This document shows positions 16,535-32,481 of a DNA stretch of 64,000 nucleotides, piece by piece. Each line of letters opens with the position of its first letter. The first letter of the stretch is position 1. This stretch comes from Pelagibacterales bacterium SAG-MED01 (GTDB lineage: Bacteria; Pseudomonadota; Alphaproteobacteria; Pelagibacterales; Pelagibacteraceae), in assembly GCA_014654455.1 (NCBI GenBank), contig JACWCY010000006.1, positions 1 through 64,000 on the forward strand, written 5' to 3'. Under the pieces are notes generated by a model. The model was not told the DNA's origin, searched no databases, and saw only the letters and a program-made list of their open reading frames with translations. Made by a program: the position numbers and the translations under genes.

Positions 16535-16571
16535 ACTAAAGTTTAAATAAACATTTATTTGCAACAATAAT

Positions 16572-16587
16572 CTTAAAATATTTTTAA
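16572..16587 (+). repeat. 16-bp match to the left junction of unit A
   Basis: CTTAAAATATTTTTAA is identical to 11697-11712, which spans the tRNA-Leu anticodon loop and the first bases of unit A. Both are followed about 15 bases on by a similar CTATGG(G)CA stretch. It lies 37 bases after the tRNA-Thr core at 16510, so two attachment-type cores sit in one spacer. Confidence 0.5.
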
Positions 16588-16661
16588 TCTGGTCACACTA
16601 TGGGCACAGTGGTAATATTTTAATGATTAAATAACTTTAAAAATTAGATAAGGAGATTCAT

Positions 16662-17498: not shown

Positions 17499-17504
17499 TT
17501 AATA

Positions 17505-18546: not shown

Positions 18547-18549
18547 TTT

Positions 18550-19074: not shown

Positions 19075-19079
19075 ATAAT

Positions 19080-19133
19080 GTGAAACAAAAAGCCTTCACC
19101 CTAATAGAACTTTTTAGATATAGGATTATATAG
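19080..19133 (+). pseudogene. Broken seventh pilin start at the right edge of unit B
   Basis: From a GTG at 19080 the reading is a leader plus FTLIEL, then it changes to an unrelated Phe-Arg-Tyr tail and stops at 19133. Homology to the other pilins ends at 19110, where the conserved right-end module (TTTTTAGATATAGG) begins. The gene was therefore cut at the element boundary, and the missing 160 residues are not elsewhere in the window. Confidence 0.8.
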
Positions 19134-19137
19134 GAGA

Positions 19138-19159
19138 ACTTGTACCAGACTTGTACCTA
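19138..19159 (+). repeat. 11-bp repeat pair, right end of unit B (ACTTGTAC type)
   Basis: ACTTGTACCAG at 19138 and ACTTGTACCTA at 19149, adjacent, followed by GAGAGATAAAAT. It matches the pair at the left end of the same unit (13854). Confidence 0.8.
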
Positions 19160-19279
19160 GAGAGATAAAATAAAAAAATTTTACTTATTCCTCTTGTTCA
19201 ATTATAAATATTAGCATAAATACTCATGAAATTCATTAATGCCCTCGTGGTGAAATTGGTAGACACAAAGGACTTAAAA
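19159..19279 (+). repeat. Island repeat copy 3: promoter block plus tRNA-Leu 5' half
   Basis: Promoter block 19159-19240, then tRNA half 19241-19279 ending CTTAAAA. As in copy 2, the next bases (GCCGAGGGA) restore an acceptor-strand partner (CCTCG with CGAGG) while the anticodon, variable and T arms are missing. Nearly identical to copies 2 and 4 over 120 bp, indicating recent shared origin. Confidence 0.93.
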
Positions 19280-19302
19280 GCCGAGGGATAGAAGTTAAAG
19301 TC

Positions 19303-19332
19303 AGTCCATAGTAGTCCAAGGCAGTCTAAACA
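19303..19332 (+). repeat. Triple AGTCCA repeat, 10-bp period, left arm of unit C
   Basis: AGTCCATAGT, AGTCCAAGGC and AGTCTAAACA at 19303, 19313 and 19323. Same place and order as at 13751; the third copy has one change (AGTCTA). Confidence 0.72.
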
Positions 19333-19405
19333 TCCTATAAAGTCCCATTATTTTAATTTAGCTTTCAATTAATACTCAGAAATACGGTTTAATTAATTTT
19401 TAAAA

Positions 19406-19427
19406 ACCAGCACATAACCAGCACATG
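19406..19427 (+). repeat. 11-bp repeat pair, left end of unit C (ACCAGCAC type)
   Basis: ACCAGCACATA at 19406 and ACCAGCACATG at 19417, followed by GATAGATAA. It stands where unit B has its ACTTGTAC pair, after the same TTTAATTAATTT lead-in. Confidence 0.8.
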
Positions 19428-19555
19428 GATAGATAATATGATATTATAACTTATGGAACTTTTAGTAGATATTATAAATTTAGTTAGTTTATTTTTTTAA
19501 ATTTTTATTTGTATTATCAAAATATACTTTTTTGAGAGCAAAAATTGGCAGGAGA

Positions 19556-19577
19556 ACCAGCATAAGACCAGCATATA
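19556..19577 (+). repeat. Extra 11-bp repeat pair inside unit C
   Basis: ACCAGCATAAG at 19556 and ACCAGCATATA at 19567, followed by GAAAGATAA. A second, slightly different pair 150 bp inside the left one, just before the first gene. It could be an additional arm site or a remnant junction from an earlier insertion. Confidence 0.7.
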
Positions 19578-19625
19578 GAAAGATAATTTAATGGATAATA
19601 AAACTGCTATTTGTTAGGGTTTGAT

Positions 19626-19898
19626 ATGGAAAAATCTACAAAACTTTCAACAATTGGTTTAGGGATATCATTGGGCTTAGCTTGGTCTATCGGAGTATTG
19701 ATAGTAGGAGTGATGGCTTTAGTGATGGAACAAGGAACTGTTGAACCTTTTAAAAATCTATTTAACATCATGTATCCAGGTTGGGGCGATACTTTAGGTA
19801 AAACTCTATTAATGACTGTTTGGTCATTTACCCATGGATTTGTAGGTGGGTTTTTAATTGGAATATTTTATAATCTTTTCGCTAAACGATTTAACTAA
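19626..19898 (+). CDS. Two-helix membrane protein of the 'bacteriophage holin' annotation family
   Basis: From the ATG at 19626, 90 residues (a TTG at 19611 would add five). Two hydrophobic helices: about residues 10-33, then 60-85 around WSFTHGFVGGFLIGIFYNL. The pattern of a first helix with LGLAWSIGVL, a central NIMYPGWGDTLGK loop and a GG-containing second helix with a YNL end resembles a small family often labelled phage holin. No lysis gene is nearby, so a holin role is not supported by context. First gene of the unit C run. Confidence 0.5.
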   Translation: MEKSTKLSTIGLGISLGLAWSIGVLIVGVMALVMEQGTVEPFKNLFNIMYPGWGDTLGKTLLMTVWSFTHGFVGGFLIGIFYNLFAKRFN

Positions 19899-19905
19899 AG
19901 TTTAG

Positions 19906-20589
19906 ATGAAAAAGTCTGGGGTAAATAAATCTCTAGTTAGTATTTGGGCTAGAATTAAAAATATTTACAATGAAAGTCCAGTGCATGCTGCTTTTAGTTA
20001 TCCATTTGTTTTTTTATTTTTCTTTATAATAATTGCTATTCTAATTGAATATTTATTTGAAAATTTAGGTTTTGATCCACGTCTTGTGACTTATTATTTA
20101 GGTAAACTATTTTTTTTAATTCCAATTTGGGTATTAACAGGGTTATTTGTATCAAAAAGAAAGTTACCTTATTTATTAGCTTTAATTATTGGCTGTGCAA
20201 TTATTTATATACCTTATGTTGTGAATGAAGGTTACACCAATGCTGCCAGAAAAGCAGCTACTAAGACTTTACATGCTCAGACGATTAAATATATTTCAGC
20301 AGAAATTCAAAAATGTAAGTCTGGAGAAAGTTTTTTTATGAATAATACGCAAAAGTGTCCTGCAACAGCTGCAAAAGCTGTATCTGGATCAATTGAAACA
20401 ATGCTTGATAAAAATCCATTTAATAGCACAAACAAAAGTGTGAGACTCTCAGATAACAATATAAATAATGAGGATGTTGGTTATGTAAGTCTAAGTGTAT
20501 CTGAATCTAATGTTATAATTAAATCATGTATTGATACTCCTTGTAAAAAAGAAGAGAACCGTTTGCAAACTAGTATAAAAATTAAATAA
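19906..20589 (+). CDS. Polytopic membrane protein with a pilin-type ectodomain (pilin chimera)
   Basis: 227 residues. The N-terminal 105 residues hold about three membrane segments and no FTLIE signal. The last segment runs straight into NEGYTNAARKAATKTLHAQTIKYISAEIQKCKSGES, which parallels the pilin stretch NGYTKSAKENAVKANHKNV and its EIMKCEIGEE. The end, SCIDTPCKKEENRLQ, matches the ACFQTPCNKTSNRLY end of pilin 3. So a pilin ectodomain is mounted on a different membrane anchor and cannot be processed by prepilin peptidase in the usual way. The stop overlaps the next start. Confidence 0.75.
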   Translation: MKKSGVNKSLVSIWARIKNIYNESPVHAAFSYPFVFLFFFIIIAILIEYLFENLGFDPRLVTYYLGKLFFLIPIWVLTGLFVSKRKLPYLLALIIGCAIIYIPYVVNEGYTNAARKAATKTLHAQTIKYISAEIQKCKSGESFFMNNTQKCPATAAKAVSGSIETMLDKNPFNSTNKSVRLSDNNINNEDVGYVSLSVSESNVIIKSCIDTPCKKEENRLQTSIKIK

Positions 20590-20891
20590 TGGAAAAAATT
20601 AAGCATATATTTTCTAAATATTATTCTTGGATAGCTATTTTATCTCCAATTGCATGGTTAATCCCAGGTTTTATTCTAATTGGATTGACAGATGGTTTTT
20701 GTACTAGATCAAGTTTATTAAGAATTATCAGTGGCTACGTTTTTTTACCATTACCATTATGGTTAGGTGTTTTCTTCTCTAACAAAAGAGGATTTTACTT
20801 TGGTTCTATTTTTGTTTGGGGATCATTATGGATGGTTGGTTTAGTTGCATATTATGGAATGAATTGCGGAATAGATTGGTTGCAAAAATAA
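20589..20891 (+). CDS. Small three-helix membrane protein
   Basis: 100 residues with three hydrophobic segments (about 14-32, 45-62 and 70-92). No family recognised. Its ATG shares a base with the previous stop, and its stop shares a base with the next start, so it belongs to the same translated run. It may be an accessory of the pilin chimera upstream, a guess from position only. Confidence 0.6.
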   Translation: MEKIKHIFSKYYSWIAILSPIAWLIPGFILIGLTDGFCTRSSLLRIISGYVFLPLPLWLGVFFSNKRGFYFGSIFVWGSLWMVGLVAYYGMNCGIDWLQK

Positions 20892-21496
20892 TGGGAGATT
20901 TATTAGTACTTATTTTAATCATAGTTGTTTTAATTGGTTACGTAATTTACAGAAGAAAAAAAGTTGCAAAACTTAAAGCTGAGGGAAAAAAGCAAAAAAC
21001 TTATCTGGGCTGCACATTACCAGCGCTAATTGGAATATGTATATTAGTATTTAGTATATTTGTCATGGTTCCAATGATGGGAAATTTTTATGATGATTAT
21101 GAAAAAAAAGGAAATAAAATGCATTTTGATCAAACTCTAGATTATTTTAATTCATCAAGTGATTACCAAGATTTATCAAATACCCAAAAAAAGATTATAG
21201 CAGTAAAATTATTTCTACTCATAAATTGTGATAATGGAGAAGATACTTTGAAAAAATTAATAGGATTTGAACAAAATATTTTATATAAAGCCTGTGTTAT
21301 TGTTCAAAACAATAATATTTATAATGAATTTTCAGAATATAAATTAATTAAATCTAATTTCATAGTTGCTGGCCAAACAGGAATTATCGATCATCTAGAA
21401 AATTTAAATGAATTACCAAAAAAATTTTATTCTCTTGTTTTTAATGTAGATTTTAAAGACTCTATAAAGCTTTACGATTGGTATATAAATGAGTGA
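20891..21496 (+). CDS. Membrane protein with C-terminal helical domain
   Basis: 201 residues from the ATG at 20891; an in-frame start at 20816 lies inside the previous gene and is less likely. Two hydrophobic segments (about 3-18 and 42-64) frame a basic cytoplasmic loop, and a 135-residue mostly helical domain with three Cys follows. No recognised family. It overlaps the next gene by 8 bases. Confidence 0.6.
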   Translation: MGDLLVLILIIVVLIGYVIYRRKKVAKLKAEGKKQKTYLGCTLPALIGICILVFSIFVMVPMMGNFYDDYEKKGNKMHFDQTLDYFNSSSDYQDLSNTQKKIIAVKLFLLINCDNGEDTLKKLIGFEQNILYKACVIVQNNNIYNEFSEYKLIKSNFIVAGQTGIIDHLENLNELPKKFYSLVFNVDFKDSIKLYDWYINE

Positions 21497-22064
21497 AGAA
21501 AAAAATAAAAAGAAAAAAACTAGTAAAATTTCTAAGGGTTGTTTAATTGTTTTTTTAATTATTTTAGGAATATTTATTTTTTTCTTTTATATTTTTTATG
21601 AGGCTTTTGGGAGCTCAAGATATAAAGAAAATACAAAAGAACTAATTGAAAATACTTCTACAAGATATTTATCATCAACCAAATTAATATATCCAGAAGA
21701 TGCTGAAATAATACATGTATCTTCAAAAAAATTAGGACCAAACTTTTCAACAAATTCAATATTTTCAGTTAAAAATATTGATTTGTTTATAGATGATGTT
21801 CAGAAAAAATATACGTTTAAAAACGTGAAAATGAATTATCCAACATTAGGAAATAATGAAAACTTCGATATTTTGATTTCAGACTTATGTGGAAATTTAA
21901 ATCAAAAAGATTACCAAGTTAAAAATCCTGATAGTTTAAAAAACTTTTGTGGAGAAAGAAATATTATGATTTCACATGTTAAAAAAGAAGTAGAGCATGT
22001 GATTATAATGGTAATTTTACCTGATGAAAAATTGATTTGGGTAAATGATACTGGATGGTTTTAG
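21489..22064 (+). CDS. Single-pass membrane protein, unknown
   Basis: 191 residues: a Lys-rich start, one strong hydrophobic helix at about residues 17-38, then an extracytoplasmic domain with two Cys (DLCGN, NFCGE). No recognised family. Its TAG stop at 22062 is the first codon of the conserved right-end module, as for the last gene of unit A, so the gene may have been fused to or trimmed at the boundary. Confidence 0.6.
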   Translation: MSEEKNKKKKTSKISKGCLIVFLIILGIFIFFFYIFYEAFGSSRYKENTKELIENTSTRYLSSTKLIYPEDAEIIHVSSKKLGPNFSTNSIFSVKNIDLFIDDVQKKYTFKNVKMNYPTLGNNENFDILISDLCGNLNQKDYQVKNPDSLKNFCGERNIMISHVKKEVEHVIIMVILPDEKLIWVNDTGWF

Positions 22065-22084
22065 ATATAGGATTTTATAGGACA

Positions 22085-22106
22085 ACCAGCACAAGACCAG
22101 CACATG
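22085..22106 (+). repeat. 11-bp repeat pair, right end of unit C (ACCAGCAC type)
   Basis: ACCAGCACAAG at 22085 and ACCAGCACATG at 22096, followed by GGAAGATAAAAT. It matches the left-end pair of unit C and takes the place of the ACTTGTAC pair at the same offset in unit B. Confidence 0.8.
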
Positions 22107-22227
22107 GGAAGATAAAATAAAAAAATTTTACTTATTCCCCTTGTTCAATTATAAATATTAGCATAAATACTCATGAAATTCATTAATGCCCTCGTGGTGA
22201 AATTGGTAGACACAAAGGACTTAAAAT
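22107..22227 (+). repeat. Island repeat copy 4: promoter block plus tRNA-Leu 5' half (left attachment site of unit D)
   Basis: Promoter block 22107-22187, then tRNA half 22188-22227 ending CTTAAAAT. Recombination with the intact tRNA at 32391-32430 would join this promoter and half to the rest of the tRNA, giving a complete tRNA-Leu and a 10.2-kb circle. The half differs from the intact gene at two bases (GGTGAAA versus GATGAAA, and ACAC versus ACAT), which marks the parental versions. Confidence 0.93.
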
Positions 22228-22259
22228 ATTCCAGTCTTTCAATTTAATTAATCCTCACT

Positions 22260-22279
22260 GACCCACAGCGACCCAGGAC
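22260..22279 (+). repeat. 10-bp repeat pair, left end of unit D (GACCCA type)
   Basis: GACCCACAGC at 22260 and GACCCAGGAC at 22270, 33 bases after the tRNA half. A CTTTCAATTTAATTAA lead-in just before it resembles the one in the left arms of units B and C, so the position is equivalent although the motif differs. Confidence 0.6.
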
Positions 22280-22326
22280 CCTTATAAATATTAGCCTTCT
22301 TGTTTTGGTTGATTATATCTCAAACT

Positions 22327-23895
22327 ATGAGACCAAAACTAAATGATAAAAAAGGAACACACCAGTTCCACACAATACAATTCACCGATAAGGCGATAAT
22401 TAATCTTAAATACAATAAGAAGACCGAGAAGAGACAAAGAATAAGAGTTAAGTTAAAGAATGCCCCTAGAGGTATCTCTTTGAGATGGACACCTATAAGT
22501 AATAAAAAGGTATTTCAATTAGAGTTTAGGTTTAGAGGTAAGAAGTATAGACACGATTGTGGAGTGTTTACACCTGGGGTTTACACTTGTAATTCTCTTA
22601 TGGATTACATGGTGAAGCTCAATGAGAAACACCTGGACACAGAAGGAAACTATAAGACTAATCCTAATGTTGATGTCATTACAAAGAAACAATTAAAGAA
22701 TTCACAATTAAAAACTTGTAGAGAATGTATAGAGTTAATTCACAAAGATAATTACCCTAGAAAGAAAATAGAAGGAAACTTATCTGCGTTGTCACAAAAG
22801 GACCACTCCAGGTTTCTACTAGGTTATAACAAAAGAAGAGACCACATCACCTTTATAGATAATAATAAGGGATGGGGTGAAGCTATATTTAAAGATAAGT
22901 CCTCAATAAAAGACTGGGATACTTTATTCAAAACATATCCTAAAGGTGTTGGTGTTGAACCTGGTGATGAAACCAGTGTGTACGATAGTTATTTGGGTGA
23001 TGTAATAATAGATGATTTAAACCCTGGTGCCATTGAGATTTACCTTAATGAGAAGACTAGAAGTTATGGCCAAAAGGAAAACATAAGGAAGGCTTTAGCT
23101 TGTTTGTGGGGTTATGCTAGAGAAAGAGGTTTTATGGGTCCAAACCCTCCATTAAATCCAACAAGAAAAGAGAAGGGTGGAATTACAATTAAAAAAGCTG
23201 AAGAGAGTTTATGGGTGGGGAGTAAATACAATGAGCTTTCTTTTGATGTCACACAATTAGAAGCTATTGATAATGCCTTATTTACATTGAGAGATAAGTT
23301 TCCATTTCAATCTGAATGTTTACGACTGATGTTGCACACTGGAATGAGAGCTGAAGAGTGCAAAAAGATAACTAGAGAGATGATAACTGCTGATGAAGAT
23401 GGTGACCCAATAATATTATTAAAAAGGTACATTGCCAAAGGCAGAACCCAACAACAACAAAAGGATATTACTTACGATATCACCACACCAATAAGAGAAG
23501 TATTAGATAGTGTTAAATACCAATTAGATAAACCTAAATATAAACCTTATCAGTTTGTCCCTTGGTTATTTCCAACAACAAGAATATCTATTGAGAAACT
23601 ATCTGACCCTGACAAGTACCCTGGTTATGCAGTGTCACATAATTGCAGAATAAAAAGCCTGGATGATTGTTGGGAGGCAGTAAGAGAGATAACTAAATTA
23701 GAAGGCAGTATTAAAACTTTGCGTAAAGCCTTTGTAAACCTGGCCAATGAGACACTTGGAGGTGCACATAAAGGTAAATCTGTGAGTAAACATAAGACTG
23801 AATTCACAAATAGTAGTGCTTATGATAAATCCAGTAGAAAGAACACCAAGAAGATGGCACAAAAAGTTGGCCAGGTGTTGACCTTTAAGAGATGA
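22327..23895 (+). CDS. int: Tyrosine recombinase / integrase of unit D
   Basis: 522 residues from the ATG at 22327; a TTG at 22300 is possible but adds no conserved part. The catalytic domain is C-terminal: Arg341 in HTGMRAEE, a Lys/Gln-rich beta-hairpin (AKGRTQQQQKD), Arg466 in KTLRKAF, His489 in SKHKTEF and Tyr499 in SSAYDK. The spacings (466 to 489, 489 to 499) agree with XerD-type enzymes. The usual His three residues before Arg466 is Lys463. The N-terminal half contains an arm/core-binding region. It lies next to the attachment half-site, as integrases do, and should act on the tRNA-Leu anticodon-arm core. Confidence 0.92.
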   Translation: MRPKLNDKKGTHQFHTIQFTDKAIINLKYNKKTEKRQRIRVKLKNAPRGISLRWTPISNKKVFQLEFRFRGKKYRHDCGVFTPGVYTCNSLMDYMVKLNEKHLDTEGNYKTNPNVDVITKKQLKNSQLKTCRECIELIHKDNYPRKKIEGNLSALSQKDHSRFLLGYNKRRDHITFIDNNKGWGEAIFKDKSSIKDWDTLFKTYPKGVGVEPGDETSVYDSYLGDVIIDDLNPGAIEIYLNEKTRSYGQKENIRKALACLWGYARERGFMGPNPPLNPTRKEKGGITIKKAEESLWVGSKYNELSFDVTQLEAIDNALFTLRDKFPFQSECLRLMLHTGMRAEECKKITREMITADEDGDPIILLKRYIAKGRTQQQQKDITYDITTPIREVLDSVKYQLDKPKYKPYQFVPWLFPTTRISIEKLSDPDKYPGYAVSHNCRIKSLDDCWEAVREITKLEGSIKTLRKAFVNLANETLGGAHKGKSVSKHKTEFTNSSAYDKSSRKNTKKMAQKVGQVLTFKR

Positions 23896-24047
23896 ATAAG
23901 AAGGCAACAAAACCTTATCCCTTCATCATAAAAAAGAATGGAATTTTATATAAGCTAGTTTGTTTCTATGGTCGTTGCTATTTAAGAGAATGCGATAAGA
24001 ATGGTAAAATATTCAAAAGAAATAATGTTGTAAAACTATTTGATTGA
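23892..24047 (+). CDS. Small basic protein coupled to the integrase
   Basis: 51 residues, start ATG at 23892 overlapping the integrase TGA by four bases (ATGA), so translation is coupled. Composition is basic and aromatic with two Cys (VCFYGRC, RECDK) and a beta-rich look. No family recognised; a directionality factor or small DNA-binding helper would suit the position, but nothing in the sequence proves it. The codon pattern and four-base overlap match the rest of unit D. Confidence 0.55.
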   Translation: MNKKATKPYPFIIKKNGILYKLVCFYGRCYLRECDKNGKIFKRNNVVKLFD

Positions 24048-24049
24048 AG

Positions 24050-24077
24050 TTATCCCCTGAATTCATATAAGGGATAA
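24050..24077. promoter_or_regulatory. Inverted repeat TTATCCC/GGGATAA before the 24079 gene
   Basis: TTATCCC at 24050 and GGGATAA at 24071, 14 bases apart, end one base before the ATG at 24079. The same GGGATAA occurs at 24594 in the next promoter region, so this may be a repressor operator governing both promoters of the element. Confidence 0.5.
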
Positions 24078-24078
24078 T

Positions 24079-24588
24079 ATGGGAGTTAAAAAAGACATAA
24101 TAGATACACCATTAAAAATTACAGAAATTTTTAGAGTAGGTCCTAGAGTAAAAGCACCTAGGGATAAAAGAGACTGGGACTTTCTTATTTATGAATTAAA
24201 GAAACTCAAAGTCACACCTGGGGAGGCTTATAGAATTATTGCAGAAAAAAAAGATAAAACCTCTTCAGTTAGATACGACTGGAAGATGTTAAGACTGACA
24301 ATGTATGTATGGGAAAGACTACACGAAAGTGAGAAATTATTTAATAGACCCAAAATAGATACAATTAGAGAGGTTGTTGGTCATAGAAAATTTAGACAAT
24401 TCTTTTATGGTTTCTTTCCTGACCTGGAGTTAGACCACGAAAAAGAAGTAAAGCTACTCTATAAATTAATTACAGAAAAACCAAACTACCCATACCTGAA
24501 AGAAGGTTATTATTTCTACCCAGGAACGAAAAAGGTGATACCTCAAAAGGTCCTGGACAAGATATTGTTTGATACCCCCAAAAAGTAA
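24079..24588 (+). CDS. Unknown protein of unit D, possible regulator
   Basis: 169 residues, charged, no membrane segment. Predicted mostly helical with a Trp/Tyr-rich middle (RYDWKMLRLTMYVWERLHESE) and a C-terminal FYPGTKKVIPQKV stretch. No family recognised. It stands alone between two regulatory-looking spacers that share the GGGATAA motif, which is where a repressor or early control protein would be expected. Confidence 0.6.
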   Translation: MGVKKDIIDTPLKITEIFRVGPRVKAPRDKRDWDFLIYELKKLKVTPGEAYRIIAEKKDKTSSVRYDWKMLRLTMYVWERLHESEKLFNRPKIDTIREVVGHRKFRQFFYGFFPDLELDHEKEVKLLYKLITEKPNYPYLKEGYYFYPGTKKVIPQKVLDKILFDTPKK

Positions 24589-24591
24589 AAA

Positions 24592-24640
24592 AAGGGATAA
24601 TTACCCCTTGAACTAATCCAGGGGGTAGTATATATATTAT
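24592..24640 (+). promoter_or_regulatory. Promoter with overlapping palindromes for the main unit D operon
   Basis: A good sigma70-type promoter: TTGAAC at 24608, 17 bases, TATATA at 24631. It is overlapped by AAGGGATAATTACCCCTT (24592-24609, palindromic arms AAGGG and CCCTT) and by TACCCC facing GGGGTA across the -35 to -10 spacer. These suggest a repressor-controlled promoter driving the genes from 24665 on. Confidence 0.6.
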
Positions 24641-24664
24641 CTATGAGACTTTTAGGTAATATAA

Positions 24665-24991
24665 ATGTTCAATTTTAACTATACGAAACCTTATTATTCG
24701 GAGGATGAGATATTAGAGTTATTTTCTCTAACTAAATCATCACTACAAAGAATGCGTGAGGAATGCCTGAAGAGTGGAGGGGACCTATTTTTAGAGATGG
24801 GTTATTTCCACATTAAAGGAATTAAGACTGCAATGTATGAGCCAGTTAAATTTTCTGCTTGGTTGTTTGAACATAGAGTAGAGCCTGAAAGTAAATATGA
24901 CTACGAGATTAATGAGACTAACAAAGTCAAAGAAGGATTAATTAAGTTGTCACAATATAAACCAATAACAAAGAAATGGAGTACTAAATGA
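24665..24991 (+). CDS. Small winged-helix-like DNA-binding protein (excisionase/AlpA type)
   Basis: 108 residues. The first 60 residues, YYSEDEILELFSLTKSSLQR followed by a strand-loop-strand with GYFHIKGIKT, match the short helix-turn-helix plus wing of excisionases and small regulators. First gene after the strong promoter at 24608, a usual place for a directionality factor or early regulator. It overlaps the next gene by four bases. Function inferred. Confidence 0.55.
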   Translation: MFNFNYTKPYYSEDEILELFSLTKSSLQRMREECLKSGGDLFLEMGYFHIKGIKTAMYEPVKFSAWLFEHRVEPESKYDYEINETNKVKEGLIKLSQYKPITKKWSTK

Positions 24992-25389
24992 CAAAAGACT
25001 GGCGAGATGATTTTGATTGGACTGACCCTGATGATGTCCAATTAATGAGAGATATGTTGCCTGACCCTAATGGTGACCAATCAAATGGCCTAGATACAAA
25101 AGAACTTGGTCCTGACAATAAAGAGGCTTGTAAGTTAATGGAAGCACAACAAAATCTATTACCTTATGAGAAGAAATATGAAGAGCCAATAGTTTCTGAA
25201 CCTGGCGAATTCCAACAAATAGAAGGAGTGGGTAAAGATATTTATGGCAAATATTCTTATTCAGTTATGGAATACAAAGGCAAACAATATTTTGTCCAGG
25301 TGAGAGATTATGAAACTTACCAAGGTTATAACGAAATTAACAATGGCAAAATACTTGTAAGTGAGCCTAGGAAAGAGAGGGTTCAATGA
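24988..25389 (+). CDS. Acidic unknown protein of unit D
   Basis: 133 residues, strongly acidic in the first 50 (DDFDWTDPDDVQLMRDMLPD), with a beta-rich Tyr-rich C-terminal part (DIYGKYSYSVMEYKGKQYFVQVRDY). No family recognised. It lies between the excisionase-like gene and the ssDNA-binding protein with four-base overlaps on both sides, so it belongs to the replication run. Confidence 0.6.
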   Translation: MTKDWRDDFDWTDPDDVQLMRDMLPDPNGDQSNGLDTKELGPDNKEACKLMEAQQNLLPYEKKYEEPIVSEPGEFQQIEGVGKDIYGKYSYSVMEYKGKQYFVQVRDYETYQGYNEINNGKILVSEPRKERVQ

Positions 25390-25955
25390 GTAAACCTTTA
25401 ATCTTAACTACACCTAAAGGTAAAGCTGAATGGCCACATTTAGTTGAACCTGATGTTGCTTTTAATCCTGAAGGTTTATTTCATACTAAATTGATATGTA
25501 AAAAATCTGAAAGTGTTGAAGTTAAAAAAGCTATTGATAACTTGATTGCACAAGAGATTAAAAAACAACACGACAAAGACCCTAAAAAAGAAATAAAAAA
25601 ATCACTGCCTTATACTGAAGATGGTGATGACATTATTTTTAATTTCAAATTAAGAGCCAGTGGAACTAGAAAAAGTGATGGGAAACCTTTTACCCAGGAA
25701 CCTAACATAGTTAATGCTGACCTTACTCCCTTTGACAAAAACCAAAAGATATGGAGTGAAAGTATTTTAAAAATTACTTTTGAGCCATACTCTTGGAATA
25801 TGCCAGTAGGAATTGGATGTACTTTAAGAATAAAAACTATCCAGGTCCTAGAGCTTGTCACTGGGAAAACATCTAACACTTTGGGTGACCTTAAAGTTGA
25901 AACCATGGTGGAACCTAAAGTTAAAGAACAAGAAGAGGCACATAATAATTACTAA
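25386..25955 (+). CDS. Phage-type single-stranded DNA-binding protein (T7 gp2.5-like / DUF2815)
   Basis: 189 residues. It starts with LILTTPKGKAEWPHLVEPD and FHTKLICKKSES, then IIFNFKLRASGTRKSDGKPF and WSESILKITFEPYSWNMPVGIGCTLRIKTIQVLEL, an OB-fold pattern seen in gp2.5-type proteins of T7-like phages. An acidic C-terminal tail, typical for partner binding in this group, follows. It protects single strands during replication and fits with the primase-helicase downstream. Family assignment is from pattern memory and needs a profile search. Confidence 0.7.
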   Translation: MSKPLILTTPKGKAEWPHLVEPDVAFNPEGLFHTKLICKKSESVEVKKAIDNLIAQEIKKQHDKDPKKEIKKSLPYTEDGDDIIFNFKLRASGTRKSDGKPFTQEPNIVNADLTPFDKNQKIWSESILKITFEPYSWNMPVGIGCTLRIKTIQVLELVTGKTSNTLGDLKVETMVEPKVKEQEEAHNNY

Positions 25956-25975
25956 AGGTAAAGGAGGTAAATTAT

Positions 25976-26347
25976 ATGCCAGTAAATAATGTAGACAAAA
26001 GAATGGAAGGTAAAGGGACTATGAAGGTCGCTGAAAAAGACCCTCTTACACATATTGATTTAGAGTTGATGGACAATATGAAGAGAGTTTTTGATGAGGC
26101 GAGGAAGGAAGGATTTAAAGGAACCTTCAAAGACTTTCTTGATACTCTTTCTGAAGAGGACCTGAAAACTTTATTCTTGGAAAAAGGAGGACTGGTTGCA
26201 AAAGTCAAAGAACCAAAAGCAGTAAAAAAAATAAACATTGCTGAATACTTTGCACCAGGAAAAACAGTTTCCTCTCTCACTGATAACGAGAGAGCACAAA
26301 TAAAAGCAATGCTAAATAAAATGTTGAAGGGAGTTAGTGCGAACTAA
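25976..26347 (+). CDS. Unknown helical protein of unit D
   Basis: 123 residues, charged and mostly helical (LELMDNMKRVFDEARKEGF, then KDFLDTLSEEDLKTLF), with a C-terminal SLTDNERAQIKAMLNKMLKG. No family recognised. It has the clearest ribosome site of the element (AAGGAGGT, 9 bases before ATG at 25976) and a 20-base gap before it, so it may be made at a higher level than its neighbours. The stop overlaps the next start. Confidence 0.6.
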   Translation: MPVNNVDKRMEGKGTMKVAEKDPLTHIDLELMDNMKRVFDEARKEGFKGTFKDFLDTLSEEDLKTLFLEKGGLVAKVKEPKAVKKINIAEYFAPGKTVSSLTDNERAQIKAMLNKMLKGVSAN

Positions 26348-26826
26348 TGGCTTACAATATGAGTTTCTATAAGGGGAGGTATCCTGGTGAACCTGGTTAT
26401 GAAGAATGGACTGGGTTTGAAGTACAAATGAAAATTAAAGGTACCACCCCTAAAACTTATGTACCTATTTACCCATTAGATTTTCACAAAAAGATGTTGG
26501 ACAACAGAACACTCCCACTCAAAAGAGGAACTAATTTTACAGACTTTCAAATAAGACTGAATATAGAGATGGCAAAAAATAATAGATACTTTCAACCAAG
26601 AGAGTGGGGACCAAATAAATTATTATACAATTATAATATGATGTACCACTCGGTTAATAATATGCAGTCACTTAACGACAGAATTATTAGAAACCTGAAG
26701 AGACACATTAAGAAACTATACGATAGTCCTAAATATAAAATTGAAGATAAAGACAGAATAAAATTAGAAGATGAGATTTACAAAGCTAGAGCCTTCTTCC
26801 CACAAGGAAAGGATTATTCACTATGA
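26347..26826 (+). CDS. Unknown aromatic, basic protein of unit D
   Basis: 159 residues, rich in Tyr, Asn, Lys and Met (for example YNYNMMYHSVNNMQSL, then RIIRNLKRHIKKLYDSPKYK). Likely soluble, and possibly nucleic-acid binding by its charge. No family recognised. One-base overlap with the previous gene and four-base overlap with the next. Confidence 0.58.
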   Translation: MAYNMSFYKGRYPGEPGYEEWTGFEVQMKIKGTTPKTYVPIYPLDFHKKMLDNRTLPLKRGTNFTDFQIRLNIEMAKNNRYFQPREWGPNKLLYNYNMMYHSVNNMQSLNDRIIRNLKRHIKKLYDSPKYKIEDKDRIKLEDEIYKARAFFPQGKDYSL

Positions 26827-27635
26827 GTAATAATAATTATAACAAAGGTCCCTTTGAGAGCACTTTAGATAGAATACAAAAGAGACTACCTAAAGAATAC
26901 AAAAAGCCTACACTCAAAGATAAAGCAGTGAGAAAACCAAATGCAGTCCCACCAAAGACTAGAACTATAAAAATGAGAGATGGTGGAATTGCTATTAAGA
27001 AGAGACCTGAAAATATGGCCGAGAGAATAGAGAGAACTATATATAAGTATGAAGGAACTATACCTAAACCTTCAAACTATGATGATAAGTCTATTGTGGA
27101 CCAGGAAAAATGGAATTCTATGAGTGGCCTAGAAAAAAAGACACCAGTAATTCAAAGACCTAAAAAATTCGATAATATGGACCCAACCACTTACCCTATG
27201 AACCAAAAGAAAACTTTGAGTGACTGGGAAGCAGTATTACATAGCGCAAAGACCAACCCTAGAGACCCAAACACTATACAAACAAAAAGAATGTTAAGAA
27301 AAATTTACAACAAAAATCCAAACCAATTACAAGATGATGAATTAAGAATAATAAAAAAACATCCTTCTCAAATGAAAAAGGAAGTAGAGAAACCCATAAT
27401 TAATACTGAACCAATAGTACCTTATAATTATAAACCTTTTACTCCAACAGAAGACAAAAGAGATGTTAGACAAATTTTAAAAAATTCTTCCAGGATGAGA
27501 CCTGGATTGAGTGAAGACCTTATAGGTTTACAATCTGCAATTAATAAGAATGTAAATTATGTATTGGGTAAGAAAGAAGAAAGTACTGAAAGTGATGAGA
27601 AGAGTATCAACAATAAGGAGGAAACTTATGACTGA
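26823..27635 (+). CDS. Unknown basic, low-complexity protein of unit D
   Basis: 270 residues, very rich in Lys, Arg, Pro and Asn, with few hydrophobic clusters, so largely disordered. Segments such as RKPNAVPPKTRTIKMRDGG, WEAVLHSAKTNPRDPN and a closing acidic tail are visible but fit no family I know. Disordered basic proteins in phage-like elements may bind nucleic acid or act as scaffolds; nothing here decides it. The end overlaps the next start by 8 bases. Confidence 0.55.
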   Translation: MSNNNYNKGPFESTLDRIQKRLPKEYKKPTLKDKAVRKPNAVPPKTRTIKMRDGGIAIKKRPENMAERIERTIYKYEGTIPKPSNYDDKSIVDQEKWNSMSGLEKKTPVIQRPKKFDNMDPTTYPMNQKKTLSDWEAVLHSAKTNPRDPNTIQTKRMLRKIYNKNPNQLQDDELRIIKKHPSQMKKEVEKPIINTEPIVPYNYKPFTPTEDKRDVRQILKNSSRMRPGLSEDLIGLQSAINKNVNYVLGKKEESTESDEKSINNKEETYD

Positions 27636-27834
27636 TAAATGGAAATATAAATCAGTTTCACTAAAGAATTCCACTTATTCAATGCTAAATGATTTGTCAA
27701 AAACTTTAGTACCTGGAATAGAACTTTCCAATGCAAAAACGATTGAACAATTAATTTTAGATAAGAATAAGTCCAAGTGTTCTTTAGGAAGCAAACCTGG
27801 AGGAACACATGGCGAAAACAAAAAAGAAACCTAA
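27628..27834 (+). CDS. Small ribbon-helix-helix-like protein
   Basis: I start at the ATG at 27628, which has an AAGGAGG ribosome site 8 bases upstream; the longer reading from 27559 runs through the previous gene. 68 residues: a strand KYKSVSLKNSTYSML leading into DLSKTLVPG and a second helix KTIEQLILDK, the strand-helix-helix order of Arc/MetJ-type regulators. Possible copy-number or promoter control. It overlaps the following coiled-coil gene by 26 bases. Confidence 0.55.
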   Translation: MTDKWKYKSVSLKNSTYSMLNDLSKTLVPGIELSNAKTIEQLILDKNKSKCSLGSKPGGTHGENKKET

Positions 27835-28477
27835 AGAATACACCCGAAAAGAAATCAAAAAGTATGGCTTATGTAAACACCATCTAGTTGGGTATAAGCA
27901 ATTAAAGACACTTGTTAGAAAACAACAAAAGTACATAGTTAATCAAGACAAGATATTAGATAGGTTATCCAAAGACATAGAGAATAAGTCTAATATGATG
28001 AACCTATGGATGACTAATAGGCAAACCTGGACCGATAAAATTAATAAGGACCTATTACAAAAAGCAGAAAACCACGCAAAAGAAAAAAAAGAAATCAAAG
28101 AGCATTATGAGAAAGAGTTAGCTGAAGTTAATAAACTCTATGAGGAAGCAGTTGAAACTAATAGAGAGATTGTTGAAATTAATAGAGACGCAATCAAAAC
28201 TAATAGAGAAATAATTAAATCACATAACGAAATCACCAGGGCCTACAATGGCCTTCATAGTGTAGGTGAGTTTGCACAAGACCTGGGTATAGATATTAAA
28301 AAGCACAATAAGATGTTGCCTGAAAATAATCCTGATTATGACTTCTCACAAAAGCACACACTATTAGAGAGTGGTAAAGTAAGACACGAATATAAACTTA
28401 CACCAAAGAACCCACCTAAAAAGTTTGGAAAAATATTTAAAGATAAAATTAAAAAATCTAATGGGGAGGACAAATGA
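27809..28477 (+). CDS. Coiled-coil protein of unit D
   Basis: 222 residues. A central coiled coil of about 110 residues (about 40-150) holds a near-repeated seven-residue pattern (TNREIVE, INRDAIK, TNREIIK, SHNEITR), indicating a regular heptad. A short basic N-terminal part has KKYGLCKHHLVGYKQL. The C-terminal 60 residues are Pro/Lys-rich. No family recognised; a structural or scaffold role is plausible. Overlaps the primase-helicase start by four bases. Confidence 0.6.
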   Translation: MAKTKKKPKEYTRKEIKKYGLCKHHLVGYKQLKTLVRKQQKYIVNQDKILDRLSKDIENKSNMMNLWMTNRQTWTDKINKDLLQKAENHAKEKKEIKEHYEKELAEVNKLYEEAVETNREIVEINRDAIKTNREIIKSHNEITRAYNGLHSVGEFAQDLGIDIKKHNKMLPENNPDYDFSQKHTLLESGKVRHEYKLTPKNPPKKFGKIFKDKIKKSNGEDK

Positions 28478-30780
28478 TAACCCAGGAAGACATAAAAACC
28501 TTTGCGAGTATCTTTAGTGGTGCACAAAGAAGATATGGAAAATTATATTTCTATGATGAGAAAACTGGTGAGAAAGATTGTTACGAAGAGAAAGAGCCAA
28601 TTCCAATAGAGAACCATTTAACTCAAAAAGAATATCTTGGAAGGTCACCTTTAAATGAAGATACAAATATGTGTGAGTGGCTTGGTGTTGATATTGATAT
28701 TAAGATACCACCTAAAACATTTTGCGCTGATGTTTGGTCCAAACTAGGTACTCATTATTTTCCCTTTATGACAAAGAATAGAAAGTGGAGGGTTATAGAA
28801 TTCCTTGATGAACCTATGGATGTTCAATTAGCTCATAAGAGAGCCAAAGAATTACAAAAAAGAATAGAGAATGAATTAGGTATAGAGACTGACCAAAAGT
28901 CTACTGCGCCCACAGAACCTAGTAGTGATGGCGCAGTTGGAAGGTGGTTTTTCTTACCTTATGGAAATGGTTATGATGTTTGTTATTCACCTGGAGGTCA
29001 TCCTCTTACACTGCAACAATTTTATTTTAGATACAAATACAGAAACCATCCAATAGTTGTTTGTGGAATTGGAATAGATGGAGGGGGTAATGATGGTTCC
29101 AGAGGTAATCATTTTTATTATGTGAAACTCTATAAGAAACACTTTGATTGTGATGTTTACATGGAGGATATCAATAAGAATTATGCAACACCTTTAGATG
29201 ACCGGAAGTTTATACAAGAAGATAAACATACAGATAAATCTATTGAGAAAGAAGTTTATAACAAAGAATATTATCTCAATGGTCAACCTGGATGGATACA
29301 AAGTACTTGTGGAGTTAGACCTTATTTAGACGCAAAAGGGTTTGTCGCCATAGCGAATGCAATACTTGAAAACCATATTTATGTTCAATCAAGAACAGAT
29401 TTTTTTGAGAACGATACTAATGAGTTTAAAAGTAAAGAGCAGATAAACGACTGGTGGAAACACACTAAACCAAAAGGACAGAATGGTAAGATACAACCAA
29501 TGTCAGCAGTATTGCTAGAACATAGTGACCTTACAAAAGTTAGAAGTTATTTAACTCACGCAGGACTTAATCCTGGAGTTGTCTCTATTACTAGAGGAAT
29601 GATTAAAGGAACTACTGAAGGTGATTACTTAAATATCTATAATGACCCAGCGATTGAACCAAAAGAAGACACTCCATACAAAAGATTTGATGAGTATTAT
29701 TCCTGGTTATTAGGTGCTGATAATTGGAAAGTAGAGAAACAGAAATTGGCCTTTTGTTTGAGAGCTAAAGAAGAAATACACGAGAATGGAATTAAAATAC
29801 AATGGTTCTCAATATGGCACTCAACAACCCAGGGAGTTGGTAAAGGTTTATTCTCACAAGTAGTACAAAGTTTATTTGGCTATAAGAATGTTGCGCCAAA
29901 TGTAAAATTTAAAGATATGATTGGAACCCATACGACTATCATTGAGGGTAAACAAATAATATTCCTTAATGAAGTTGTCTTGGAAAACAACACTGCAAAG
30001 ACAAAGACTTTATCTAATGAGTTTAAGGACCTAATAACAGAACCAGTCCTATGGATAAACCCAAAGAATAAACCACAGATAGAGATACCGAACCTTTGTA
30101 ATTTTTGGGTGTTCTCTAATTCTGATACACCTTTATATATAGAGGATGATGACAGAAGAGCTTTTGTTATAAATATTAAACACAATAAACAATCTGTAAA
30201 TTTTAAATTGTTTGATGAAGGTTATAAGGAAGACATATTGAATGTCATAAAAGACCCTTCAGGTTTTAAATATCATCTACTCAATGACATAGCTTACAAT
30301 AGAGATATATTTTTTACTGATGCCCCTTACACTGATGACAAAGCAGAATTAATTGAAAGTAATAAATCTGAATTACTGCAAGAGTTGGAAGCTCGTCACG
30401 AAGCAATGGAGTTTCCTTTTGGTTATCATCAAGAGGCACATACTTATGGAATGAACCAAGAGATAAAATTCACCTGGCATTATAGAGGGATGATAAACAA
30501 ATTAGAGTTACGAAAGATGTTAAAGAACCATCCTGACTTTAAAGATTATTATATAACCCTGAATGAGCTTGATGTTATCCTAAAGAAGATATCTACTAAA
30601 TGGCCCAATGGTGAGTGGACCAAACAAATAGTACTAGATAACCACAAAAGAATTAGGGTTTATTGTACTCATCCCCTAGAGTTTGATGGCACTTACATAA
30701 CCGAGATGACAGAAGGTCAATTAGGTAGTCTCTATGAGAACACTGACCCAAACCTTAACCTAGATAAAATGCCTTTTTAA
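28474..30780 (+). CDS. Primase-helicase (AEP-like primase domain plus SF3 helicase)
   Basis: 768 residues, the largest gene of unit D. The N-terminal part has a primase-like acidic pair Asp73/Asp75 in WLGVDIDIK and WRVIEFLDEPMD further on. The helicase is C-terminal: a Walker A-like TTQGVGKGLF with Lys457, Walker B IIFLNEV (Asn499, Glu500), motif C FWVFSNSDTP with Asn549, and arginines in DDDRRAFVI. Such fusions replicate phages, plasmids and phage satellites by recognising an origin, melting it and priming. The repeats at 31118-31226, just downstream, are a candidate origin. Confidence 0.85.
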   Translation: MITQEDIKTFASIFSGAQRRYGKLYFYDEKTGEKDCYEEKEPIPIENHLTQKEYLGRSPLNEDTNMCEWLGVDIDIKIPPKTFCADVWSKLGTHYFPFMTKNRKWRVIEFLDEPMDVQLAHKRAKELQKRIENELGIETDQKSTAPTEPSSDGAVGRWFFLPYGNGYDVCYSPGGHPLTLQQFYFRYKYRNHPIVVCGIGIDGGGNDGSRGNHFYYVKLYKKHFDCDVYMEDINKNYATPLDDRKFIQEDKHTDKSIEKEVYNKEYYLNGQPGWIQSTCGVRPYLDAKGFVAIANAILENHIYVQSRTDFFENDTNEFKSKEQINDWWKHTKPKGQNGKIQPMSAVLLEHSDLTKVRSYLTHAGLNPGVVSITRGMIKGTTEGDYLNIYNDPAIEPKEDTPYKRFDEYYSWLLGADNWKVEKQKLAFCLRAKEEIHENGIKIQWFSIWHSTTQGVGKGLFSQVVQSLFGYKNVAPNVKFKDMIGTHTTIIEGKQIIFLNEVVLENNTAKTKTLSNEFKDLITEPVLWINPKNKPQIEIPNLCNFWVFSNSDTPLYIEDDDRRAFVINIKHNKQSVNFKLFDEGYKEDILNVIKDPSGFKYHLLNDIAYNRDIFFTDAPYTDDKAELIESNKSELLQELEARHEAMEFPFGYHQEAHTYGMNQEIKFTWHYRGMINKLELRKMLKNHPDFKDYYITLNELDVILKKISTKWPNGEWTKQIVLDNHKRIRVYCTHPLEFDGTYITEMTEGQLGSLYENTDPNLNLDKMPF

Positions 30781-30781
30781 T

Positions 30782-31117
30782 ATGACCCCTACAAGTAAAA
30801 AAAGAAAATCTGCATTATTACAAAACCTGGTGCGAGATAAGATATTAAAGAGCTTTCCTCACCTGAAACCTGAAGATGTTATTACTGCTAATAATGGACA
30901 AAATGGGCCTGACATAAAGCTATCTAAAGTTGCTCGTAAGTTAGTTGGAGTAAACTTTGAGTGTAAGAACCAAAACAAAATGAAAACTATTTATGACTGG
31001 TATAAGCAATCCTCCAAGAGTGCCAATAAGTTAATGCCTTGTGTTGCCATGAAGATGAACACTAGGGAACCACTTGTAGTTATTAACCTGGATGACTTTA
31101 TGGACTTAATTAAGTAG
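30782..31117 (+). CDS. PD-(D/E)xK nuclease, VRR-NUC/resolvase-like
   Basis: 111 residues. The core is Asp44 in GQNGPDIKLS, then Glu60 and Lys62 in VNFECKNQ, the D...ExK pattern of this nuclease fold, with an aromatic helix IYDWYKQSS. An N-terminal basic helix is followed by LLQNLVRDKIL. Small enzymes of this kind resolve or nick replication intermediates. It follows the primase-helicase after one base and closes the replication run. Confidence 0.75.
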   Translation: MTPTSKKRKSALLQNLVRDKILKSFPHLKPEDVITANNGQNGPDIKLSKVARKLVGVNFECKNQNKMKTIYDWYKQSSKSANKLMPCVAMKMNTREPLVVINLDDFMDLIK

Positions 31118-31226
31118 CACTCATCACTCACAACATCATAGCCTTTTTTATTACCCTGGGTGGCCTAGGTCCTGTCACAATGTTTCACCTTATTGTCTCT
31201 TCTAAATGTGTTGAGTGGGTTGAGTG
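31118..31226. other. Candidate replication origin: opposed TGAGTG/CACTCA iterons
   Basis: Two CACTCA copies (31118, 31125) face two TGAGTG copies (31212, 31221) about 80 bases apart, each pair with a period of 7-9 bases. Between them is GC-richer DNA with ACCCTGGGTGGCC. Placement just after the primase-helicase and nuclease suits an origin recognised by the helicase. The 240-bp spacer to 31357 also contains AGGTGGGTACACCT, an imperfect palindrome. No coding potential seen. Confidence 0.4.
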
Positions 31227-31357
31227 ATTGAGAGACCCAGTGATGTTAAAGGATAATAAAAAGTTTATCTCTCAAACCTCTCACGATATAACTATGCGTG
31301 TTGAGGAGGTGGGTACACCTGGGTTCAAATGAGCCAGTTTAGTGTTCCCTATGTACT

Positions 31358-31972
31358 ATGAAAACAGATGAACATTTATACACATTAACTAGACTAGAGT
31401 TTGCTAAAAACATTGGTAAATCTAAAGAAGCAGTCAAAAAAGATATGATGAGAGGTAAATATAAAGACCTCTATATTTTTAAAAATGGCCAATATTATTT
31501 TAAAAGCCGAGAGGCAGTGCGTGATATTAAGGGTTTGTCCCCCCTTAATTTGTACCCAGTAAAGAAGTCAAAAATAAATAGAGGTGGACACGAAAGTGCA
31601 GTTAGAAAAGGCAGATATCCTAACAATGCTTTTGCAGAACATAATCATATGAAAAAGATGTTGGCGCTTCGTGGTAAGATGACACCTGAAGAGTTGGCAA
31701 TGGTTCCTGATGTTGAAAGAATGGTCAAACAAGAAAGACAAAAACAATTAAGAGAGGAATATGAGGCCAAGATAACACCTAGAGATACACATGGAGGTCA
31801 CTTAAAGTCTTACACTTCAGGTTTATTCAGTGAGAGCAATAGTGGATATAGTGACCCTTACTATCACAATGGAAGAGCACACGAAAGACACCCTACAAAG
31901 TTTACTGCTAGTAATAGAGGAAGGACCATTGAAGATAGCGCCTTCCCATATTGGAAACCAAAATATTATTGA
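31358..31972 (+). CDS. Unknown DNA-binding-like protein at the right end of unit D
   Basis: 204 residues. The N-terminal 50 look like a winged helix (LTRLEFAKNIGKSKEAVKKD, then a YIFKNGQYYFKSREA wing). The middle is helical and basic, and the C-terminal 70 are Gly/Ser/Tyr/His-rich and probably flexible. No family recognised. It is set apart from the other genes by a 240-bp spacer and lies next to the right arm, so it may bind element DNA (origin, arm or packaging site); this is a guess. Confidence 0.55.
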   Translation: MKTDEHLYTLTRLEFAKNIGKSKEAVKKDMMRGKYKDLYIFKNGQYYFKSREAVRDIKGLSPLNLYPVKKSKINRGGHESAVRKGRYPNNAFAEHNHMKKMLALRGKMTPEELAMVPDVERMVKQERQKQLREEYEAKITPRDTHGGHLKSYTSGLFSESNSGYSDPYYHNGRAHERHPTKFTASNRGRTIEDSAFPYWKPKYY

Positions 31973-32321
31973 CATAGATTGACATAGGTTAAAGGGCAAT
32001 AAGTTTTTGAAAATTAAAATATTATCTCTATATTGATTTTATCATTTAGTAATAATTCCTTGGGTGAGTGCCTAATGGTCTCAACATTTCTGATACTCAC
32101 CCTGGGACCTCTTCCCAAAACGATATAAATTTTTGCAAAATTTTTTAGCCAATCAATTTATTTTGAAAATGAAAAAGTTGGGACTGACTATGTAAATCAA
32201 AGCATAAAGGGTAAGACTATGGGACCCCTATATTATTAAAGGTATATGCCACTTATTTAATTAAAGTATTAATCTAAATTGTTTGGGACCCCTATGGTTG
32301 TTCCACACTGGTTCCACACCA
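31969..32321 (+). repeat. Right arm of unit D: noncoding stretch with three short repeat pairs
   Basis: 418 bases without a gene separate 31972 from the tRNA. They contain TTGACATAGA/TTGACATAGG at 31969 and 31979 (10-bp period), two GGGACCCCTAT copies at 32221 and 32285, and GTTCCACACTG/GTTCCACACCA at 32300 and 32311 (11-bp period). The last pair ends 69 bases before the tRNA, close to the 81-base offset of the right-end pairs in units B and C. GTTCCACAC also occurs once near the start of the integrase gene (22365). Confidence 0.65.
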
Positions 32322-32350
32322 AGAAACTTTGACTTGATGTTTGATGTTGT

Positions 32351-32378
32351 GTTATCAATAAAGCAAGATATAACAATG
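32351..32378 (+). promoter_or_regulatory. Element-supplied promoter of tRNA-Leu and nadK
   Basis: TTGTGT, 16 bases, TATAAC lies about 15-40 bases before the intact tRNA. It is unrelated to the promoter block found before the four half-copies, so the tRNA is now transcribed from DNA brought by unit D. The assignment is by consensus match only. Confidence 0.5.
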
Positions 32379-32390
32379 CAAATACAAGGG

Positions 32391-32476
32391 GCCCTCGTGA
32401 TGAAATTGGTAGACATAAAGGACTTAAAATCCTTGCCGCTTGCGGAGTGCCAGTTCGAGTCTGGCCGAGGGCACCA
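32391..32476 (+). tRNA. tRNA-Leu(TAA), intact, right boundary of the island
   Basis: 86 bases including an encoded CCA. The acceptor GCCCTCG pairs with CGAGGGC at 32466-32472; the anticodon arm is AAGGA, loop CTTAAAA (anticodon TAA), TCCTT; a long variable arm with CTTGC/GCGGAG is present, as in leucine tRNAs; the T arm has GTTCGAG. Its 5' half through the anticodon loop is the duplicated attachment core. nadK starts five bases after its 3' end. Confidence 0.96.
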
Positions 32477-32481
32477 TTAGC

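Follow-up and report, generated by a model that had tools for sequence, protein, structure and literature searches.

Gene content and limits of the element

An integrated element of 10.2 kb (22188..32390, forward strand) was delimited in the window, the 64,000-nt stretch that was analysed (positions 1 to 64,000 of contig JACWCY010000006.1, Pelagibacterales bacterium SAG-MED01). The element contains no GATC, GANTC, CTNAG or ACGT site and one site each of ACNGT and TCGA. Judged from its genes, which include an integrase and replication genes of its own and no recognised structural gene, it is phage-satellite-like. The left attachment site (att) is a 42-nt copy of the 5' part of a tRNA-Leu(UAA) gene (22188..22229, forward strand), located by repeat and pattern search, and its first 40 nt are identical in internal junctions of two relatives (L003 and L005). 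The tRNA-Leu(UAA) gene that is the integration target (32391..32476, forward strand) was called by ARAGORN, and its first ~42 nt form the right att.

The genes of the element described here all lie on the forward strand. The gene beside the left att (22300..23895) encodes a putative integrase of the tyrosine recombinase type that matches phrog_1 of the PHROG database (E 3e-8). This protein gave no Pfam match, and because a PF00589 search of its own genome missed it, its identity rests on the PHROG match and its position. It is followed by a gene for a conserved protein of the element family (24079..24588), 35-64% identical in four relatives, and by a gene for a small protein (24665..24991) that matches no Pfam or PHROG family, has a similar open reading frame (ORF) at the same position in the relatives L002 and L003, and is possibly DNA-binding. 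A gp2.5-like single-stranded-DNA-binding protein (SSB) is encoded at 25386..25955 (PF21265, E 2e-7; phrog_112, E 9e-20) and is closest to the SSBs of autographiviruses, namely those of the uncultured phage KM23C739 (38.6%) and pelagiphage HTVC011P (39.9%). The ORF list further gives small ORFs starting at 25976, 26347, 26823, 27559 (or a later start) and 27809, within 25976..28477, for which Pfam and PHROG scans returned no convincing family match.

The gene at 28474..30780 encodes a primase-helicase (DUF5906; PF19263, E 6e-17; phrog_1156) whose helicase part resembles the primase of phage NrS-1, in a match that spans 24%, and also gives a profile match to the solved structure 6k9c, designated 'Primase'. 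No close phage relative of this primase was present among 42 records, in which at most 38% of the protein was covered. The next genes encode a PD-(D/E)XK or RusA-like nuclease (30782..31117; phrog_244, E 1e-10; PF24608 below cut-off) and a conserved terminal protein (31358..31972), 58-68% identical in five relatives, whose N-terminus is winged-helix-like in a low-confidence model with a mean predicted local distance difference test score (pLDDT) of 57. The non-coding end with short repeats (31973..32390, no strand assigned) adjoins the att and may serve as an origin or as a recombinase-arm region. PHROG scans, which distant structural genes could escape, recognised no capsid, tail or terminase gene among the 14 ORFs of the element. 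One coiled-coil-like ORF gave weak matches to tape-measure proteins (E 0.003 to 0.06), and other ORFs match families of unknown function. The structural and packaging genes that would mark a pelagiphage prophage were not recognised in these scans. No anti-restriction gene was recognised in the element.

Absence of GATC and GANTC

Sites were counted by script over the whole window, which contains 138 GATC and 87 GANTC. The sequence-only reading had found by eye that both words are missing at 21463-32456, and the script returned the same gaps, from 21389 to 33295 for GATC and from 21458 to 32457 for GANTC; the next longest site-free stretches of the window measure 1,842 nt and 3,153 nt, respectively. 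The site-poor block is thus real, but its limits are the tRNA-Leu att copies that bound 22188-32390, rather than a start at 21463. Sites of CTNAG, ACGT and TCGA are still present to the left of the element, at 21532, 21813, 21823 and 21865.

Applied to 10,203 nt, the site frequency outside the element predicts 26.2 GATC and 16.5 GANTC, and the Poisson probabilities of observing none are 4e-12 and 7e-8, respectively. The earlier figure of about 30 of each per 10 kb agrees with base composition and exceeds the actual outside rate (~26 and ~16). A first-order Markov model built from the element predicts 29 GATC and 33 GANTC. Synonymous codon shuffling of the coding part with the proteins kept (500 shuffles) gave expectations of 20.0 GATC and 23.6 GANTC against none observed, and a separate run of 1,000 shuffles never gave a zero count for these words. 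The sites are not equally rare in the flanks, which carry 132 GATC and 83 GANTC in 50.8 kb.

Further words lost or kept in the element

The earlier statement that both words were lost is true as far as it goes and incomplete, since further palindromes are missing as well. Observed and expected counts under the codon shuffle are 0 and 30.1 for CTNAG, 0 and 11.8 for ACGT, 1 and 14.3 for ACNGT, and 1 and 14.1 for TCGA. CATG (5 against 18.7) and TCNGA (8 against 20.9) are reduced, and the counts of TCNNGA (12 against 29.1), TATA (59 against 85.9) and AANTT (80 against 103.9) lie below those of all 1,000 shuffles. GTAC, AGCT, TGCA and CTAG occur at normal levels under the same shuffle, and CCNGG, GGNCC and CANTG are high; the first-order expectation is 14 for CCNGG (42 observed) and 15 for GGNCC (26 observed). 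The depletion of words in the element therefore exceeds both codon and composition expectation. The purged palindromes mostly match known Type II specificities, such as those of DdeI, HinfI, DpnII, HpyCH4III, TaqI and NlaIII.

Several asymmetric words, chosen post hoc from all 5-mers, are also low against the first-order expectation, including GGAGA (0 of 17.7), CCAGA (1 of 18.3), ACAGG (1 of 16.8) and CAGAG (1 of 15.3).

The high CCNGG count in the element is made up of CCWGG (42 sites, ~3x enriched), with no CCSGG, and other satellites are CCNGG-free, normal or enriched. An origin of the CCWGG excess as a by-product of avoiding six palindromes was ruled out, the mean under such avoidance being 16.3 against 35 observed in coding sequence. 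The excess may be a sink from the loss of CCAGA, CCAGC, ACAGG and GCAGG, each of which occurs once.

Host genes and upstream units

Three further units bounded by tRNA-Leu att copies at 11665, 13689 and 19241 lie upstream of the element (11665..22187, forward strand) and carry PhyH, methyltransferase and prepilin-type genes. These units are not purged and served as an internal negative control. The host control consisted of rpoB, rpoC and fusA, named by position following the sequence-only reading, and the ORF at 35215. Over 13 words, the ratios to the codon-shuffle expectation are 0.61-1.28 in the four host genes and 0.57-1.44 in the upstream units. Against the first-order expectation, the host DNA to the right of the element is low in CTNAG (46 of 99) and GANTC (58 of 86).

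The upstream units have features of their own. A tandem row of prepilin-type genes, whose products are alike at the N-terminus and diverge at the C-terminus, occupies 15418-19074 inside one att-bounded unit, which also encodes a 507-amino-acid ORF without a Pfam match (13902-15425). A 37-nt piece of the tRNA-Thr gene at 34890-34926 recurs within this pilin unit at 16501-16537 with 86% identity and may be the remnant of an element that integrated at tRNA-Thr. The two copies of a 168-nt direct repeat (19112-19279 and 22059-22226, 92% identical) each terminate in the att segment of tRNA-Leu and form the upstream ends of two neighbouring units.

Close relatives and their life cycle

The PD-(D/E)XK nuclease is 80-83% identical in seven IMG/VR contigs (L002, L003, L004, L005, L017, L018 and L020), five of which also matched the primase (51-55%). 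Gene order was inspected in L002, L003, L005, L018 and L020, and words were counted in partial sequences of L003 (14,120 of 15,849 bases), L005 (13,618 of 15,464) and L017 (6,553 of 7,584). A near copy of the element, L021, is present on a Pelagibacteraceae single-cell contig (SAG AG-457-P16) with 98.7% identity over 3.8 kb and lacks GATC, GANTC, CTNAG, ACGT, ACNGT and TCGA. A SAR11 host is indicated by this near copy, by the genome size of 1.17 Mb and by the low G+C content.

Terminal direct repeats of 99 nt, 127 nt and 55 nt were found in L004, L018 and L020, respectively, and none in L002; the three contigs are therefore circular or concatemeric. In L003 and L005, the 40 nt of tRNA-Leu shared with the left att lie at an internal junction, which represents attP. 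The junction in L018 and L020 contains what was read by eye, and not called by a program, as a tRNA 5' half with anticodon GCA. Together, the 5'-half junctions and the circular or joined forms indicate that members of the family excise and use the 5' halves of tRNA genes as targets. The excised circular form was seen in relatives, not for the copy in the window.

The sets of purged words overlap and differ among these sequences. CTNAG is absent from L021 and four of the seven IMG/VR relatives (L002, L017, L018 and L020), and the same five sequences contain 0-1 GANTC, against 9-11 of 38-44 expected in L003, L004 and L005. GATC is absent only from the element and L021; it is reduced in L017 (3 of 15) and L002 (15 of 28), and the other five have normal or high counts. 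CCNGG is absent from L002, L017, L018 and L020, in contrast to its excess in the window element, whereas ACGT, absent from the latter, is ~3x enriched in L002, L018 and L020. GCNGC is absent from L003, L004, L005 and phage HTVC041P.

Distant relatives in the host family

In 397 genomes of the host family, a search with the primase gave matches in nine, the own genome among them. The other eight primases are distant (24-32% identical over part of the protein). In six of the eight, a CTNAG-free block of 6.0-8.9 kb surrounds the primase gene: L103 (8.9 kb, the whole contig), L104 (8.7 kb), L105 (8.5 kb), L106 and L107 (8.2 kb each) and L109 (6.0 kb, the whole contig). The next largest CTNAG gaps in L104-L107 are 1.3-3.2 kb; the edges used for the word counts in these four were set after the CTNAG gaps had been seen, so that their CTNAG counts of zero arise partly by construction. 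L103-L107 each have a further purged set of their own, for example CATG, TCGA and GTNAC in L103 and ACNGT, TCGA and GGCC in L106, and L109 is purged of CTNAG alone. L105, L106 and L107 adjoin tRNA-Leu or tRNA-Thr, close to the tRNA-Tyr/Gly/Trp cluster near which the window element is also found. This common neighbourhood, in which the unpurged L108 also lies, is a shared integration hotspot.

Some words are in excess in these relatives, GCNGC being ~4x enriched in L103, L104, L105 and L106 and GATC roughly doubled in L103, L105 and L107.

Pelagic phages

Seven phage records were compared, four chosen by SSB similarity and three by accession, so that the proportions among them are not frequencies. 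GATC is absent from five of the seven (HTVC011P, HTVC025P, HTVC041P, HTVC019P and the uncultured KM23C739; 77-91 expected in each), in line with the earlier remark that some T7-like phages are GATC-poor. HTVC011P, HTVC025P, HTVC041P and HTVC019P contain 1, 0, 0 and 6 GANTC, respectively, of 95-103 expected. In KM23C739, HTVC010P and HTVC008M, the GANTC counts are 63 of 106, 60 of 94 and 13 of 99, respectively, those for HTVC008M being from the first 40 kb of its 147 kb. HTVC010P has 131 GATC (86 expected) and no CTNAG (133 expected), and the same 40 kb of HTVC008M contain no TCGA (56 expected) and 21 GATC (89 expected). The five autographiviruses contain 0-1 CCNGG and GGNCC. An antirestriction protein, an alternative form of protection, is annotated in HTVC011P and in KM23C739. 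No word longer than 18 nt is common to the element and the five pelagic phages compared with it. The purge in the phages is thus of the same kind but affects different sets of words, and none of them is an obvious helper.

Methylases and restriction enzymes of the host genus

Three methylase families were searched in the own genome, and the one match found, to N6_N4, is a CcrM-like gene (NCBIfam CcrM, E 7e-175, below the strict cut-off of that model). MethyltransfD12 (Dam) and C5 gave no match in this genome, and Dam was rejected as a cause on the former ground. In the genus, N6_N4 was matched in 156 of 201 genomes, C5 above cut-off in 42 of 201 and MethyltransfD12 in 16 of 300. The neighbours of these methylase genes were partly scanned (30 proteins with NCBIfam and 20 with Pfam, nearly all from 35 loci that include the own genome once and two that overlap). 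Type II endonucleases of the HaeII type (L079), Bsp6I type (L081), AlwI type (L074 and L097) and EcoRI type (L100) were found beside genus methylases, as were HNH proteins (L059, L077 and L085). Bsp6I cuts GCNGC and AlwI cuts GGATC. Classical Type II systems therefore occur in the host genus.

C5 methylases recur near a 229-amino-acid ORF in several genus genomes (L095:2531-3232, L090, L091 and L092), and the pair is a candidate for a common restriction-modification (R-M) locus. In L095 this ORF matches Pfam HisG and its neighbour is weakly PD-(D/E)XK-like. C5 methylases in L082, L086 and L093 adjoin matches to DrmB, MzaE and MzaD/DUF4420, which are anti-phage system families.

Origin of the purge

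Several Type II restriction systems have probably driven the loss of their recognition sites from the element lineage. The sequence-only reading had proposed selection by restriction while the element lives horizontally, and this proposal is well supported, because the palindromes are purged in the mobile block only and the relatives have overlapping but different sets. The other proposal of that reading, escape from cell-cycle methylation, is not needed. The purge suggests that the lineage keeps entering cells armed with restriction enzymes. A satellite would travel between cells in the particles of a helper phage, and each entry would expose unmethylated DNA to the restriction enzymes of the recipient. 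For an element of ~10 kb with no recognised anti-restriction gene, losing every site would be the cheapest protection. The purged words would then record the enzymes met by the lineage: CTNAG, which most relatives have lost, would point to the most common enzyme, and GATC, lost in the element and its near copy, a lineage-specific one. The completeness of the purge also suggests that matching methylases protect the lineage for little of its history.

Several observations weigh against selection by restriction. Under the codon shuffle, the upstream units fall somewhat short of the expected number of GANTC (14 against 24.6, z -3.0), as do the host genes for ACNGT (19 against 26.7, z -2.7). Among the close relatives, L003, L004 and L005 are only partly depleted of CTNAG (10-18 of 46-50 expected), and their GATC counts exceed expectation (63 of 38, 38 of 33 and 58 of 36, respectively). 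Two of the eight distant relatives, L108 and L110, show no purge around the primase. Some of the lost words are asymmetric, so that not all fit orthodox Type II sites. N6_N4 alone of the three methylase families was matched in the own genome. DpnII-type enzymes were found above cut-off in 0 of 297 family genomes, with one sub-threshold match that has an internal stop. No nuclease that cuts CTNAG or GANTC was identified, and no search aimed at either was made. One survey reports no R-M system in its eight Pelagibacterales genomes (PMC9516812), and another reports that temperate phages eliminate sites less often (PMC6286503), which makes a complete purge in an integrated element unexpected.

An unlikely explanation is that the element avoids GANTC so that methylation or hemimethylation by CcrM spares its promoters or origin. 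The CcrM-like methylase of the host, the frequency of N6_N4 in the genus and the mildly low GANTC of the upstream units are consistent with it. GANTC depletion of pelagiphages has also already been published: GANTC is reported to be absent from a prophage region of Pelagibacter giovannoni NP1, and about half of 33 pelagiphages are depleted of it (PMC9516812). GANTC is, however, gone throughout the coding sequence of the element, and the satellite L103 keeps 13 GANTC and no CTNAG in 8.9 kb. Because CTNAG, GATC, ACNGT, ACGT and TCGA, which have no known link to CcrM, are lost too, escape from CcrM cannot be the sole cause, and it may add to the loss of GANTC.

A site-specific nuclease of the helper phage that destroys host DNA and any site-bearing satellite is an improbable cause. 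A satellite would have to replicate in the phage-infected cell, the SSB of the element is closest to those of autographiviruses, and five autographivirus records are GATC-free, with four nearly GANTC-free. Endodeoxyribonuclease I is annotated in autographiviruses and HNH endonucleases in two of them, but no annotated phage nuclease is described as specific for a short palindrome. The word sets also disagree: CCNGG and GGNCC, nearly absent from the five autographiviruses, are enriched or present in the element, CTNAG is reduced in these phages (0.08-0.60 of expectation) without being lost, and ACNGT is close to normal in the four phages for which it was counted.

A mutation or repair bias, an assembly artefact or low-complexity composition is a most improbable source of the gap, for although the host is also low in CTNAG and GANTC against the first-order expectation, its coding genes are near expectation under the codon shuffle, the edges of the block are att sites, GTAC, AGCT, TGCA and CTAG are normal in the element, the pattern recurs in other genomes, and an assembly artefact was rejected because the independent near copy L021 shows the same purge.

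Implications

If restriction purged the element, the loss of many words from a satellite-like element makes restriction a real barrier in SAR11, one of the most abundant groups of cells in the ocean. The enzymes would be predictable from the purged words, first of all an enzyme that cuts CTNAG. A simple way of delimiting elements is also suggested, since a CTNAG-free block marks six of the eight distant relatives. A broader proposal, plausible though somewhat short of probable, is that SAR11, although described as free of restriction systems, imposes strong and varied Type II restriction, with a widespread CTNAG nuclease foremost, that satellites are a fossil record of its enzymes, and that word-free blocks delimit the elements.

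Comparison with known systems

Restriction-site avoidance is known in kind; here it is found in an unexpected class of element and host and is broader than two words. No report of a multi-word, element-specific purge in satellites was found among the matches listed from the open-access literature. In prokaryotic viruses, avoidance mostly concerns orthodox Type II sites, as reported (PMC6286503), and the element has likewise lost nearly all of its sites of this kind. Elimination of sites is described there mainly for non-temperate phages, whereas the integrated element has completely lost GATC, GANTC, CTNAG and ACGT, a departure from the rule reported for temperate elements (PMC6286503).

The PICMI satellites of Vibrionaceae resemble the element in being small and marine, in having excision and replication genes and no capsid-remodelling genes, and in forming circular or concatemeric molecules, here seen in relatives (PMC10803314). 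They differ in host, att (fis in PICMI) and gene set, and packaging has been shown for PICMI and is presumed here (PMC10803314). VEIMEs and tycheposons are likewise marine integrative elements, with reports of them in virions or at tRNA genes (PMC10803314, PMC12324425). The Charybdis element, of 4.6 kb and placed in archaea, was rejected as different (PMC12324425).

The closest parallel is formed by the GANTC-depleted pelagiphages and the NP1 prophage region, which are likewise SAR11 mobile DNA without GANTC in a host group with a GANTC methylase, and autographiviruses are prominent in that pelagiphage set as they are here (PMC9516812). That work concerns one word in phages, whereas the element described here is satellite-like, has no recognised capsid genes and has lost many words, in a set led by CTNAG.

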